DNA of 64,000 nt from Pseudobdellovibrionaceae bacterium (GTDB taxonomy: Bacteria > Bdellovibrionota > Bdellovibrionia > Bdellovibrionales > UBA1609). Positions 22,802 to 27,299 of the stretch are shown here, in pieces; positions within the stretch are counted from its first letter, which is position 1; every line of letters starts with the position of its first letter. A program made the position numbers and the translations under genes. The notes below the pieces were generated by a model. It made no database searches. It saw only the letters and a program-made list of their open reading frames with translations, and was not told where the DNA came from. The stretch covers positions 62,001 through 126,000 of the forward strand of contig CANEZP010000002.1 of NCBI GenBank assembly GCA_947444305.1, written 5' to 3'.

Positions 22802-23443
22802 TCAACGGAACGGGGGCAACTGGTAAATCTGATCGGCTAAGAATTCGCCGGCCGCATCGGCCAGGTGCAGCCCGTCGGGGAGTAAATCACGGAAGGTGAG
22901 GCGCTTCCCTTTCACTTCGAGGTAGCGGTCTTGCATCACTTTTCGGTGCAGATCGTCGAGTTTGAGCACGAAGCAATTCTTCTTAGCGACGCAACGTTCG
23001 CGAATCTCTTTGTTGAGCGCCGTGCGGCTGGCCTGGCGTGGGCCCAGCAAGGAAGGAATATCGCCGACGATCAGCGGAATTTTTCGTGCACCCGCCAACC
23101 GGATCAGACGATCGAGCGCTTGAACGCTAGGTTTGGTGTCGGGGTAAACCGAATCCCAAAACAGAAAATCCATCGCCAGAATGATCGATCTATCTTTGAC
23201 CAAATCGGGCGTTAGATTTTCGGCTTGCGCGCGGCCGGCCGAACCGGGGGTGGCGATGTTCACGATATTTTCTTTTGTGGTGTAGCGAAGGGCGAGGCGG
23301 TCACCGGGGCCGAGCGTGCCGTAACCCGCACTCACGCTGGCGCCGACGATCAACGGCTTTTTTAACAGTTCATGCGCGGCGCTGACGACCGGAGTGGCAA
23401 CTAATGTCATGCAGAGGATTCCCCGTAACCAATTGAAGAGCAT
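22802..23443 (-). CDS. SGNH-hydrolase-like exported protein
   Basis: A 213-residue protein with an N-terminal signal peptide (MLFNWLRGILCMTL to VVSA). The block I segment VGASVSAGYGTLGPGD and the C-terminal DGLHLADAAGEFLAD resemble SGNH/GDSL esterase blocks I and V, with GAS in place of GDS. It is probably an extracytoplasmic esterase or an inactive relative. ATG 23443 was chosen because it begins the signal peptide; the region upstream belongs to the BlaI control region. Confidence 0.7.
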   Translation of the reverse strand: MLFNWLRGILCMTLVATPVVSAAHELLKKPLIVGASVSAGYGTLGPGDRLALRYTTKENIVNIATPGSAGRAQAENLTPDLVKDRSIILAMDFLFWDSVYPDTKPSVQALDRLIRLAGARKIPLIVGDIPSLLGPRQASRTALNKEIRERCVAKKNCFVLKLDDLHRKVMQDRYLEVKGKRLTFRDLLPDGLHLADAAGEFLADQIYQLPPFR

Positions 23444-23514
23444 GCCGTAATATAAGTCGGCCCGGAATTTCTGTCGACGTCGGCGCAGGCCCGCGTACCG
23501 TCGCAGGTCTAGTT

Positions 23515-23532
23515 CAACTAACTTCTTAGTTG
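23515..23532. promoter_or_regulatory. BlaI-type operator 1
   Basis: CAACTAACTTCTTAGTTG has perfect 7-base arms around a 4-base centre and is one of two near-identical palindromes ahead of the blaI-like gene. The centre-to-centre distance to the second copy is 22 bases, two helical turns. Confidence 0.75.
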
Positions 23533-23536
23533 CTAT

Positions 23537-23554
23537 CAACTAAAAGCTTAGTTA
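23537..23554. promoter_or_regulatory. BlaI-type operator 2
   Basis: CAACTAAAAGCTTAGTTA shares the AACTAA-N4-TTAGTT arms with operator 1. Two phased operators just upstream of the repressor gene are typical of autoregulated BlaI/MecI operons. Confidence 0.75.
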
Positions 23555-23578
23555 CGGTAAATCCAACGGAGGACATTT

Positions 23579-23971
23579 ATGAAAAAGAACAAGCTACCCG
23601 AGAAACTACTCACCGACGTTGAACTCGAATTCATGACGGTCATCTGGAAACTGGGCGAGGCGACGGTCAACGACGTCCTCGAGAATCTGCACGGCGATCG
23701 CAAAGTCGCTTACACCTCCGTTTCAACGATCCTGCGGATCCTCGAGCAGAAGCGGGTGCTCGGCACGCGCAAAGAAGGGCGGGGGCACGTTTACCTTCCG
23801 CTCCTCAATAAACAAGATTACGAATCGCGAACGCTACAACATGTCGTCGATAAAGTTTTTGACGGCACGCCCGTCGCGCTCGTGCGCCAATTGCTCGGCT
23901 CGGTAAAAATGAAACCGGAAGAACTAAGTGAGCTCAAAACCTTGCTCAAACAATTGGAAAAGAACAAATGA
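23579..23971 (+). CDS. blaI: BlaI/MecI-family repressor
   Basis: A 130-residue winged-helix repressor. TDVELEFMTVIWKLGEATVNDV, AYTSVSTILRILEQKRVL and the coiled C-terminal dimerisation region match the penicillinase-repressor family. Known mechanism: the repressor is cleaved or inactivated when a BlaR1-type sensor is triggered. The ATG follows GGAGGAC and its stop overlaps the sensor gene by 4 bases. The gene symbol is by family only; no beta-lactamase lies next to it, so its targets may be cell-wall genes. Confidence 0.88.
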   Translation: MKKNKLPEKLLTDVELEFMTVIWKLGEATVNDVLENLHGDRKVAYTSVSTILRILEQKRVLGTRKEGRGHVYLPLLNKQDYESRTLQHVVDKVFDGTPVALVRQLLGSVKMKPEELSELKTLLKQLEKNK

Positions 23972-25551
23972 AGATCTTCAGCTTTTTACTGACGTTCAAC
24001 CTTGTCGCCGCCGCGGCGGTCACCTGCTTGATCCTTTTAGCGCCCCTCATGCGCAGAATCACCGCGGGTCGCCGGCTCACTATTCACTACGCGACGCTGG
24101 CCTTCGCGTTTATCGTGTCGACCGGCGTGACCCTGAAAGGCGGCGGCGAGATTTTCGAACCCGTCGTCAAAGTCTGGTCGGCCGCGGCGACTTCGGGCCC
24201 GGCCTTCGGGGCCTCCGCCGAACACGGAGCTCTGCAAGTGCACCGGCACGCACTGCCGGTGCCGGCGGACTACTTCTTTTTGTTTTCCGTCGGCCTCGCG
24301 GCCGGCGCGGGATTCGTCGGATTGTTCTACGTGCTTCGCGGCGCCCGGCAAATTTCGCGGATGCTTCGCCGTGCCCACGCTCTTCGCCGATTGGGCCGGG
24401 TGCGCGTGCTGATCAGCGACGAAGTGGACATCCCCTTTTCGTATCGCTCACCACGCTTCGCTTACGTCGTGGTCCCGCAATACCTGATTACGAATGCAAA
24501 CTCTTTGAGACTAACGATTGCGCACGAGCTGCAGCACCACCGACAGCGTGACACGCGCTGGGCCTACGCCCTTTTGCTTACGCGCGCGGTGTGCTTCATG
24601 AATCCCTTCGTGCATTTTTGGAATCATTGGATCGGGGAGTTACAAGAATTTGCCTGCGACGAAGCTTTGGTTGGCCGCCATGGTGCTTTGAAGCAGGACT
24701 ATGCCCGCTGCCTCATCGAGGTTGCGGAAACCGCCTGGGTTCACGGGAGCGTGCCTGCCGGCGCCACCGGTATGATCCTCCTGAACCGGGGCAATCTACT
24801 CAACAGGAGAATTCAAGTTATGTTCAAAGAGAAATCAAATACCGGAAAAGGAAAAGTTGCGGGCCTCACGGCCTTCGCGATGATCGCTTCGCTACTTACG
24901 GCGACGGCTTTCGCGACCAAGAATTTAGTGCAGGACCGCCGCGTGACCCTCGCGCAAGCGCAGCGGATGAATTCCGCGACGTCAAAAGAGTCGGCGTTTC
25001 CCGTCGTGGTGAACGATGAAGTTTTAAAATTCCTTAATCACTACATCGGCACGCCCGACGGCCGCGAGAAAATGCGCATTGCCCTCCGCCGGCTGGAGAG
25101 CTACCGGCCGATGGTCGAAGCGAAGATCGCGGACTACGATGTCCCAACCGAACTGCTGGCCATTCCGCTGATCGAATCGGGTTACCAAAATCTTCCCGAC
25201 CGCAACAAAGAAGGATACGGCGCGGGTCTTTGGATGTTCATCGCTTCGACGGCGAAGGCGTACGGGCTTAAGGTCGAAGGTCACGTCGATCAGCGTTTGG
25301 ACGAAGCGCTGCTCACCGACGCGGCCATGCGCTATTTGCTCGCGAATCGTCTGCGCTTTAAAGATTGGCCGCTCTCGGTATTGGCATACAACGCCGGCGA
25401 GTCGAGCATCCAGCAAGCCATCAACGAATCGGGCACCCGCGACGCGTGGTCGTTGGTGCGTGACTCGCGACTTTCAACGGAGTCGAAGAATTATTTGCCG
25501 AAGTTGATGGCCGCGATCCTCATCATGAGGAATCCGTCGAGCGTCGATTAG
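23968..25551 (+). CDS. BlaR1-like M56 peptidase fused to MltD-type lytic transglycosylase
   Basis: A 527-residue membrane protein. Residues 1-290 form an M56 peptidase unit: membrane segments near 5-25, 40-57 and 102-123, zinc motif HELQH at 186-190, and EFACDE at 227-232 as likely third-ligand region. A further membrane segment lies at about 297-317. Residues 345-527 are an MltD-like lytic transglycosylase with catalytic Glu403 in IPLIESGY, GYGAGLWMFIASTA and LAYNAGESS. In classical BlaR1 this C-terminal position holds the penicillin-binding sensor. The frame is uninterrupted and couples to blaI by ATGA. The inferred role is sensing or remodelling of peptidoglycan and relief of BlaI repression. 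Confidence 0.88.
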   Translation: MKIFSFLLTFNLVAAAAVTCLILLAPLMRRITAGRRLTIHYATLAFAFIVSTGVTLKGGGEIFEPVVKVWSAAATSGPAFGASAEHGALQVHRHALPVPADYFFLFSVGLAAGAGFVGLFYVLRGARQISRMLRRAHALRRLGRVRVLISDEVDIPFSYRSPRFAYVVVPQYLITNANSLRLTIAHELQHHRQRDTRWAYALLLTRAVCFMNPFVHFWNHWIGELQEFACDEALVGRHGALKQDYARCLIEVAETAWVHGSVPAGATGMILLNRGNLLNRRIQVMFKEKSNTGKGKVAGLTAFAMIASLLTATAFATKNLVQDRRVTLAQAQRMNSATSKESAFPVVVNDEVLKFLNHYIGTPDGREKMRIALRRLESYRPMVEAKIADYDVPTELLAIPLIESGYQNLPDRNKEGYGAGLWMFIASTAKAYGLKVEGHVDQRLDEALLTDAAMRYLLANRLRFKDWPLSVLAYNAGESSIQQAINESGTRDAWSLVRDSRLSTESKNYLPKLMAAILIMRNPSSVD

Positions 25552-25597: not shown

Positions 25598-25957
25598 ATG
25601 CAAGTCACATTACCGACATGGATGGTTTGGATCGCGCAATGGATTGTTTCCGGTATGGCGATCGCTTTGACCGCCGCCGTCGTGCCGGGTTTCCGGATTC
25701 GCGGCTTCGGAACGGCTCTGATCGCGAGTCTCGTGATCGGACTTTTGAATATCTTCGTACGTCCCGTACTCGTTTTTCTAACTTTACCGTTAACGCTTCT
25801 GACAATCGGGCTCTTCTTGATCGTCGTGAACGCTATCGTGTTAAGAATCTGCGCGGCTTTCCTTGATGATTTCGAGATTTCGAATTGGTTCTCGGCCATT
25901 TTAGGCGCGATCGTCTTGGCCCTGGCCGACACTCTTCTGCACGCGCTCTTGATCTAA
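25598..25957 (+). CDS. Phage-holin-family-4-like small membrane protein
   Basis: A 119-residue protein with four membrane segments. GLLNIFVRPVLVFLTLPLT is typical of the Phage_holin_4_2/YvlD-like membrane family, which is common on bacterial chromosomes and is usually not a phage lysis protein. It sits 46 bases after the M56-transglycosylase gene and before ampG, so a link to envelope maintenance is plausible but unproven. Confidence 0.83.
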   Translation: MQVTLPTWMVWIAQWIVSGMAIALTAAVVPGFRIRGFGTALIASLVIGLLNIFVRPVLVFLTLPLTLLTIGLFLIVVNAIVLRICAAFLDDFEISNWFSAILGAIVLALADTLLHALLI

Positions 25958-26003
25958 TCCGTTCGGTCTTGCAAAGCCTCGCGACTTCGTTAGACTTTAG
26001 GGC

Positions 26004-27299
26004 ATGAGCAAACTCAAAGCGGTCCTTCGCAATCCCAATCTACTCGTGGTTTTCGTTATGGGCTTTTCCTCCGGTTTACCTTTTCTGATGGTAGGCGGAA
26101 CGTTGAAGACCTGGATGCGCGAGGCCGGTCTCGATTTATCGACCATCGGCTTTTTTTCGATGGTGGCGTTGCCGTATTCATTGAAATTCATGTGGGCGCC
26201 GTTCATGGACCGCTACGTGCCGCCGCTCGGCCGCCGGCGTGGTTGGCTTTTCATTAGTCAGACGGGTTTAATGCTTTCGATCTTCGCGCTCGCGCAGGTT
26301 GATCCGGTCAGCCAGTTGAATTTGCTCGGCATCATGGCCACCGTCGTCGCGTTCTTCGCGGCCAGCCAGGACATCGTGATCGATGCTTACCGCCGCGAAA
26401 TTTTACCGGAAGAGCAACTCGGGCTCGGCTCATCGCTTTACATTCCCGCGTTCCGCCTCGCGATGTTGCTCGTGGGCGCCGGCAGTTTTTCGTTCTCCAA
26501 GCGCATGTCTTGGCCCAGCGTTTATATGCTACTCGGAAGCCTAATGTTGATCGGCATCATCACAACGCTGCTCTGTAAAGAACCGAAAACCGAAGCGCCA
26601 CCTCCGCGCACGCTCGGCGAAAGTGTCTTCGGTCCGCTGAAAGAATTTTTCTCGCGTGATTCGGCTTTTCTGATTCTCGCGTTTATCTTGCTTTATAAAT
26701 TGGGCGAAGCGATGGCGACCGGCATGCTCAATCCGTTATACATCGATCTCAAAATCGACAAAGACGCGATCACGGTGGCCGCAAAGTTTGCGGGGTTCTG
26801 GGCCACGATGGCCGGCGGGATCGTCGGCGGATTGTTCATTCTGAAGTTAGGCATTCACACGGCGCTCTGGGTATTCGGAATTTTACAGAGTTTGGGCTTG
26901 CTGCTATTTTCTTACCTCGCGCATTTTGGTCAGGCGCTGATCGCATCGGACCCGTCCGCTACGACGGTGGATACCGCGACCATTTTGCCTTTGCTGACGG
27001 CTTCGATCGGGGTCGAAAATTTCACGGCCGGGATGGCGACTACGGCATTCGTGGCGTTCATGGCGACGCAAACGAACAAGCGCTTCACCGCTACCCAGTA
27101 CGCTCTGTTGACGAGTTTGATGGCATGGCCCAGTTCGCTGTTCGGCGTGCTCGCCGGCGTTCTGGCCGAGCATTTGGGTTGGGAAATGTTCTTCGTCGTG
27201 TGCACGATCCTGACCATTCCCGGTTTGGTCATTCTCATTTGGATGAGGAAATTGCAGGCGCCGGTAAACCTACCGGTGAATCCCGCGGTCCTGCCTTAG
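26004..27299 (+). CDS. ampG: AmpG-like muropeptide permease (MFS)
   Basis: A 431-residue transporter with about 12 membrane helices. FSSGLPFLMVGGTLKTWMRE, MVALPYSLKFMWAPFMDRY and LGRRRGW match AmpG, which imports anhydro-muropeptides released by lytic transglycosylases. It stands 46 bases after the holin-like gene and follows the BlaI/M56-transglycosylase operon, giving a coherent release-and-import context for peptidoglycan fragments. The assignment to AmpG rather than another MFS branch is good but not absolute. It overlaps the convergent arfB gene by 4 bases. Confidence 0.85.
   Translation: MSKLKAVLRNPNLLVVFVMGFSSGLPFLMVGGTLKTWMREAGLDLSTIGFFSMVALPYSLKFMWAPFMDRYVPPLGRRRGWLFISQTGLMLSIFALAQVDPVSQLNLLGIMATVVAFFAASQDIVIDAYRREILPEEQLGLGSSLYIPAFRLAMLLVGAGSFSFSKRMSWPSVYMLLGSLMLIGIITTLLCKEPKTEAPPPRTLGESVFGPLKEFFSRDSAFLILAFILLYKLGEAMATGMLNPLYIDLKIDKDAITVAAKFAGFWATMAGGIVGGLFILKLGIHTALWVFGILQSLGLLLFSYLAHFGQALIASDPSATTVDTATILPLLTASIGVENFTAGMATTAFVAFMATQTNKRFTATQYALLTSLMAWPSSLFGVLAGVLAEHLGWEMFFVVCTILTIPGLVILIWMRKLQAPVNLPVNPAVLP

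Follow-up and report, generated by a model that had tools for sequence, protein, structure and literature searches.

A BlaI-coupled M56 protease with a predicted outside lytic transglycosylase domain: a candidate wall-sensing module found in several bacterial phyla

Introduction

BlaR1 and MecR1 are the classic penicillin sensors. Changes in Asp210, Tyr261 or Asp246 of BlaR1 abolish induction, the Arg293/Arg294 double mutant is severely impaired, and the loop EL1 (residues 56-96) occupies the sensor site, from which it is pushed out by ligand (PMC9834060). A wall dipeptide binds the BlaI/MecI repressors of B. licheniformis and S. aureus and destabilizes their operator complex, with an affinity in the millimolar range (PMC3305447).

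Here we describe a locus in which a BlaI gene is coupled to an M56 protease whose C-terminal domain is an MltD-type lytic transglycosylase (SLT) domain. The window analysed is a stretch of 64,000 nucleotides from a Pseudobdellovibrionaceae bacterium (assembly GCA_947444305.1, contig CANEZP010000002.1, positions 62,001 to 126,000), and coordinates are counted from its first nucleotide. The open-access literature, the only literature searched, contains no description of an M56-SLT fusion that we could find.

Results

A two-gene operon behind paired operators

All elements of the locus (23516-25551) lie where a preliminary description of this DNA had placed them:

23516-23531, no strand assigned: predicted BlaI operator 1, AACTAACTTCTTAGTT (sequence; genome uniqueness; related promoters)
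23538-23553, no strand assigned: predicted BlaI operator 2, AACTAAAAGCTTAGTT (sequence; genome uniqueness; related promoters)
23579-23971, plus strand: blaI, BlaI/MecI family repressor, 130 aa (PF03965; PDB MecI/BlaI matches)
23968-25551, plus strand: m56-slt, 527 aa, BlaR1-type M56 protease plus MltD-type lytic transglycosylase (Pfam, profile, fold)

Both operators are 16 bp palindromes of the form AACTAA-N4-TTAGTT, set 22 bp apart from start to start, that is, about two helical turns and on the same face of the DNA. The repressor belongs to PF03965 (Penicillinase_R, E = 5.6e-31), has a winged-helix fold and matches the MecI and BlaI structures in the PDB. The m56-slt start codon overlaps the blaI stop codon (ATGA); this 4-base overlap is common to 42 of 55 related operons, and a BlaI gene lies upstream of the fusion in 55/55 operons where this can be measured. 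The sequence and the Pfam matches thus confirm the BlaI gene with two phased operator palindromes and its ATGA coupling to an M56 peptidase (PF05569) with HELQH at residues 186-190, both proposed in the preliminary description.

A sigma-70 scan of the operon's strand finds no site at the operators. A divergent minus-strand gene (22802-23539, 245 aa, no Pfam match) has a longest frame that begins at 23539 and so overlaps them; it could be under BlaI control too, if its promoter sits at the operators.

A BlaR1-type protease joined to an MltD-type domain

The features of the 527-residue protein are as follows:

23983-24759, plus strand: M56 (BlaR1 peptidase) domain, aa 6-264 (PF05569, E = 9.6e-19; BlaR1 8exp profile match)
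24139-24273, plus strand: outside loop joining helices 2 and 3 (aa 58-102), positioned like BlaR1 EL1 (relatives' alignment; model)
24523-24537, plus strand: HELQH zinc motif, aa 186-190 (H186, E187 and H190 invariant, 50/50)
24646-24660, plus strand: EFACD (EXXXD gluzincin motif), aa 227-231 (E227 and D231 invariant, 50/50)
24856-24918, plus strand: fourth membrane helix, about aa 297-317 (family hydropathy peak at 307; model helix 295-317)
25132-25452, plus strand: SLT domain of the MltD lytic transglycosylase type, aa 389-495 (PF01464, E = 3.5e-14; MltD 8rhe; Foldseek)
25174-25176, plus strand: codon of the catalytic Glu403 (invariant in 50/50 fusions and 26/26 stand-alone relatives)

Pfam finds only the M56 and SLT domains in the window protein and no PF00905 penicillin-binding domain; LysM repeats, sought after the SLT domain, give no match. 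The nearest NCBIfam models are MltD and BlaR1, each scoring far under its cut-off. Run against the PDB, a profile built from 50 fusions matches S. aureus BlaR1 (8exp) over profile positions 18-322 (1.2e-21) and P. aeruginosa MltD (8rhe) over profile positions 374-529 (7e-34). In Foldseek, the window protein's AlphaFold model (mean pLDDT 88, pTM 0.80) retrieves MltD at rank 1 (8e-6) and BlaR1 at rank 7 (4.4e-5).

Averaging hydropathy over 50 sequences gives four peaks, centred at 19, 48, 114 and 307, and positive charge in the 50 fusions is found in the loop connecting helices 1 and 2, following helix 3 and preceding helix 4. Together with the model, these patterns predict the topology of BlaR1: an N-terminus outside, four helices, the protease inside and the C-terminal domain outside. 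The charge and hydropathy pattern would therefore place the protease in the cytoplasm and the SLT domain on the outer side, matching the BlaR1 arrangement. The preliminary description had anticipated a further helix followed by an extracytoplasmic MltD-type C-terminus with Glu403. Pfam, the profile, hydropathy and charge, the model and Foldseek all support this as a prediction: the SLT fold is present and the C-terminal domain is placed outside.

The only segment of the model with pLDDT below 50 is residues 61-96. For the Myxococcus xanthus homologue the model is less confident (pLDDT 77.6), and there, too, the EL1-like loop has low confidence. At the EL1 place the loop is 38-52 residues long in the 50 relatives, with F63/P65 retained in 34 of them.

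His201, Glu202, His205 and Asp210 of BlaR1 correspond to H186, E187, H190 and D195 of the window protein, and Glu242, Asp246, Tyr261 and Arg294 to E227, D231, Y245 and R281; every one is invariant in 50/50 fusions. R280 (BlaR1 Arg293), conserved in 45/50, is the lone exception among the signalling residues checked. In the SLT domain the groove Gln of the AGxWQF motif is present in 26/26 stand-alone relatives and 27/50 fusions; the position is Met in 21/50 fusions, including the window protein (Met423), and Gly or Ser in 2/50. Replacement of this Gln may alter catalysis, as would suit a sensor. On the side of the repressor, the MecI cleavage site Asn101-Phe102 aligns with Gln104-Leu105 of the window BlaI; the Leu is invariant in 54/54 BlaI sequences, and the P1 residue is variable.

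Distribution and exchange of the outside domain

Some 60 distinct M56-SLT fusions occur in Bdellovibrionota, Myxococcota, Acidobacteriota, Thermodesulfobacteriota and Pseudomonadota; many of these relatives come from metagenome bins. Within Myxococcota they are found in Myxococcus (including Myxococcus xanthus AM003), Corallococcus, Archangium and Hyalangium, and within Acidobacteriota in Sulfidibacter, including the complete Sulfidibacter corallicola chromosome, and Holophagae. The survey of fusions and BlaI partners that had been proposed for this locus thus reveals a conserved multi-phylum family, more than a single case. When 144 genomes of the class were searched with the fusion profile, 23 of them, from six families, had both domains, either in a single reading frame or in two neighbouring ones; the fusion is absent from all three same-genus genomes examined. 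Among myxobacteria both the M56 and the SLT domain are under purifying selection (dN/dS 0.11-0.49). Plasmid carriage was considered and set aside: no plasmid record matches the protein over 80% of its length.

BlaI-coupled M56 proteins also carry other outside domains. A penicillin-binding transpeptidase domain (PF00905) occupies this place in Bacteriovorax, in Legionella and in two genomes that belong to the same order as the window (loci L087, L119, L059 and L063), and M56, SLT and M23 endopeptidase domains occur in one protein at L056:1105-3024 and L095:3986-5527. A quick tree of the M56 region, with several weak forks, shows strong clustering of the outside-domain types, which require 4 changes vs 21.8 with shuffled labels. 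Since PF00905, SLT, SLT plus M23 or no outside domain is found on one BlaI-coupled chassis, the outside domain is, to judge from these architectures, exchangeable among wall enzymes.

The pairs that lack an outside domain are Alphaproteobacterial (BlaI-M56 pairs of 367-401 aa; L127, L128, L136, L138, L139, L142 and L143), and they are mostly without ACTA-N6-TAGT operators. L095 is labelled a Bacteroides metagenome bin and lacks the start of M56; mis-binning is possible. At L057:701-2346 (= L086:3980-5625) M56 and SLT lie in adjacent frames behind BlaI, through either a natural split or a frameshift. The record 'Comamonas sp. KCTC 72670' (L108, BNCN01000020.1; genome 9.0 Mb) is nested among the Myxococcus sequences in the M56 tree, and its name is probably wrong.

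A possible two-residue code linking BlaI to its operators

At least two perfect ACTA-N6-TAGT sites are present in 49 of 52 distinct SLT-type promoters, and a shuffled control gives 0.16 near-sites per region. The paired sites are 21-23 bp apart in nearly all related promoters. The S. aureus mec operator TACTACATATGTAGTA also fits ACTA-N6-TAGT. The outer operator bases are A and T in 82 of 100 SLT-type sites, and the operators of PBP-type operons read TACTA...TAGTA. The recognition helix differs in parallel: Ser49/Arg53 is found in 63/63 distinct SLT-type BlaI proteins, the window BlaI being of this type, and Ala49/Lys53 in 13/13 of the PBP type. Among all BlaI positions these two, four residues apart on the recognition helix, separate the types perfectly.

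This covariation of residues 49 and 53 with the outer operator base suggests that BlaI is tied to these palindromes, in line with the pairing claimed in the preliminary description, and that the SLT and PBP circuits are insulated from each other. Two metagenome bins carry one operon of each type (L078 with L091, L077 with L092). The switch at residues 49 and 53 may perhaps have happened only once, so that the correlation, suggestive as it is, falls short of proof.

Targets of BlaI

In the 4.17 Mb genome of the window the exact N4 palindrome is confined to the two module sites, and a scan with spacers of N2-6 returns these and one N3 site only. Allowing one mismatch adds six sites, for a total of 8 vs 17 with a reversed-pattern control. 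In 18 further genomes there are seven exact sites outside modules, in four genomes, vs 39 for the control pattern. A single BlaI gene and a single M56 gene score above the family cut-offs in the window's genome. Outside close Myxococcus relatives, no gene family recurs as a neighbour of the module. Because exact operators occur almost only at the module in these 19 genomes, the module's main target is probably the module itself, and a wider BlaI regulon was rejected on the same ground; looser operators could escape such a scan.

The genome scan proposed for listing BlaI targets therefore recovers the module sites and, in the window's own genome, no other exact N4 site. Of the earlier interpretation, the architecture and the topology are supported, the BlaI-operator pairing is supported indirectly by the covariation, and signalling of wall state may be a function of the protein; what has changed, besides the multi-phylum spread, is the output, which is likely to be the protein itself, without a separate regulon.

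In Sulfidibacter corallicola a second operator pair (L189:6641-6679) lies about 26 kb from the module with no BlaI gene after it; it accounts for two of the seven exact sites outside modules. The 49 bp around this pair are 82% alike to the module promoter; it is either a relic or a second target.

Genes downstream of the module

Directly downstream (window 25598-27299) are a PF04020 (holin-like) gene and a gene for the muropeptide permease AmpG (TIGR00901, 457 bits vs a cut-off of 350). The same two genes are close together, in varying order and strand, in same-genus genomes that have no module, and G026 and G028 share genes upstream of the module's place too. As these module-free genomes retain the flanking genes, the module looks to have been gained or lost at a pre-existing locus. 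AmpG was accordingly rejected as a component of the system, its adjacency being unconserved. A second input through AmpG is possible, since the wall dipeptide weakens BlaI-DNA binding (PMC3305447).

Discussion

The operon with its operators, the folds, the topology, the intact active sites, their conservation and the rarity of the exact operator elsewhere can be read from sequence or model. We consider it probable on balance, with real room for doubt, that they make up a self-contained module which senses the wall and regulates itself, operating in the manner of BlaR1/BlaI but with a lytic transglycosylase for its outside part. BlaI dimers on two same-face operators would repress the blaI-m56-slt operon, leaving few M56-SLT molecules in the inner membrane with their MltD-like domains facing the periplasm. 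There the SLT domain would engage glycan, most likely strands that lack cross-links or are abnormal in some other way, and a resulting movement would reach the cytoplasmic zinc protease. We infer that the activated protease cuts BlaI, as BlaR1 does. Loss of BlaI would yield more M56-SLT, so that sensor and effector would be one protein, a wall-cutting enzyme made on demand, provided that the domain retains transglycosylase activity.

Several observations lead us to this sensor module. All 50 fusions keep the catalytic residues of BlaR1, all but one of the signalling residues checked and the transglycosylase Glu; profile and fold match both BlaR1 and MltD, and an outside SLT domain is predicted from charge and hydropathy; BlaI is upstream in every measurable operon, the operator pairs are conserved and BlaI residues 49 and 53 track operator type; exact operators are nearly confined to the module, which has no conserved neighbour gene; and both halves are under purifying selection, on a chassis that elsewhere bears other wall enzymes. 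Against it stand Met423 in place of the groove Gln, since catalysis may be altered, the chance that looser operators lie elsewhere in the genomes, and the low confidence of the EL1-like loop in both models.

The strongest competitor, which we nevertheless hold to be rather unlikely, is that the M56 domain is constitutively active or self-activated, that SLT is an effector only and that the BlaI loop, needing no ligand, merely steadies the level of a hydrolase. The near-restriction of exact operators to the module would make its own product the main output, the autocleavage of BlaR1 is spontaneous (PMC9834060), and some BlaI-coupled M56 proteins of Alphaproteobacteria lack an outside domain altogether. 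Sister operons, however, put a penicillin-binding domain, the sensor of BlaR1, on the same chassis, the length of the loop at the EL1 place is conserved, and about half of the fusions lack the groove Gln of the stand-alone enzymes, which suits a sensor better than a pure effector. It is a good deal less probable that the signal is cytoplasmic, with SLT freeing anhydro-muropeptides, AmpG importing them, a derived dipeptide releasing BlaI and M56 merely helping. The adjacent AmpG gene and the effect of the wall dipeptide on the BlaI/MecI-operator complex would suit such a route, but AmpG is not a conserved neighbour and is found near PF04020 in genomes without the module, the protease active site is invariant, and the published dipeptide affinity is only millimolar (PMC3305447).

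BlaI and M56 typify bla/mec systems, and the locus might be an ordinary beta-lactam resistance switch in which the gene under BlaI control, for a beta-lactamase or the like, lies elsewhere and SLT is accessory. We regard this as very improbable, because the window protein has no penicillin-binding domain, its genome has no exact operator elsewhere and PBP-type sister operons have another operator. That the fusion is an artefact of mis-assembly, or a chance joining of two genes, is scarcely credible: many relatives do come from metagenome bins, and the domains of L057/L086 do lie in adjacent frames, yet the roughly 60 distinct fusions span several phyla and include the isolate Myxococcus xanthus AM003 and the complete Sulfidibacter corallicola chromosome, and both halves show purifying selection.

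A wider reading offers itself, which we put forward tentatively and as somewhat less than an even prospect. BlaI-M56 would be a modular chassis for wall surveillance that exchanges its outside wall enzymes (transpeptidase, transglycosylase, or transglycosylase plus M23 endopeptidase), each insulated by its own operator code; penicillin sensing by BlaR1 would be one specialization, and in the SLT form the sensor would double as the sole regulated output. A multi-phylum family with the same protease, repressor and operators and with a wall-cutting domain suggests that the switch watches the wall generally. Such a family also provides a wall hydrolase that may govern, across the membrane, how much of itself is made. 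The pairing of BlaI residues 49 and 53 with the outer base of the operator is, in addition, a compact candidate code of protein-DNA specificity, open to checking by ordinary binding assays. The interest of the module rests on its wide spread, its conservation and its testability in a tractable laboratory organism, since Myxococcus xanthus carries it.

Comparison with known systems

With the BlaR1/MecR1-BlaI/MecI systems of S. aureus and B. licheniformis the locus shares the coupling of a BlaI gene to an M56 protease that has the HEXXH and EXXXD motifs, the equivalents of Asp210, Asp246, Tyr261 and Arg294, a predicted topology of four helices and an outside C-terminal domain, and paired palindromic ACTA-N6-TAGT operators. 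It differs in that the outside domain is an MltD-type transglycosylase and no penicillin-binding domain of the class D beta-lactamase-like kind, that exact operators are found almost only at its own promoter and none was found at a resistance gene, and that the outer operator base is A/T instead of T/A, with Ser49/Arg53 in BlaI. The M56-transpeptidase operons L087, L119, L059 and L063, from Bacteriovorax, Legionella and the two genomes of the same order as the window, have the same BlaI-M56 chassis, two-gene layout and operators about 22 bp apart, but a PF00905 outside domain, TACTA...TAGTA operators and Ala49/Lys53. MltD of P. aeruginosa (8rhe/8rhf), a family 1 lytic transglycosylase, has the same SLT fold and catalytic Glu; unlike MltD, the window protein is fused to an inner-membrane M56 protease, has no LysM that we could find and carries Met for the groove Gln. 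The M56-SLT-M23 proteins (L056, L095) share M56 and SLT, and L056 also has an adjacent BlaI gene; they differ in an extra C-terminal M23 endopeptidase and, for L095, in lacking the N-terminal part of M56. The system of the window is thus BlaR1/BlaI-like in its working, yet it is no BlaR1, because the penicillin-binding domain was looked for and is absent.
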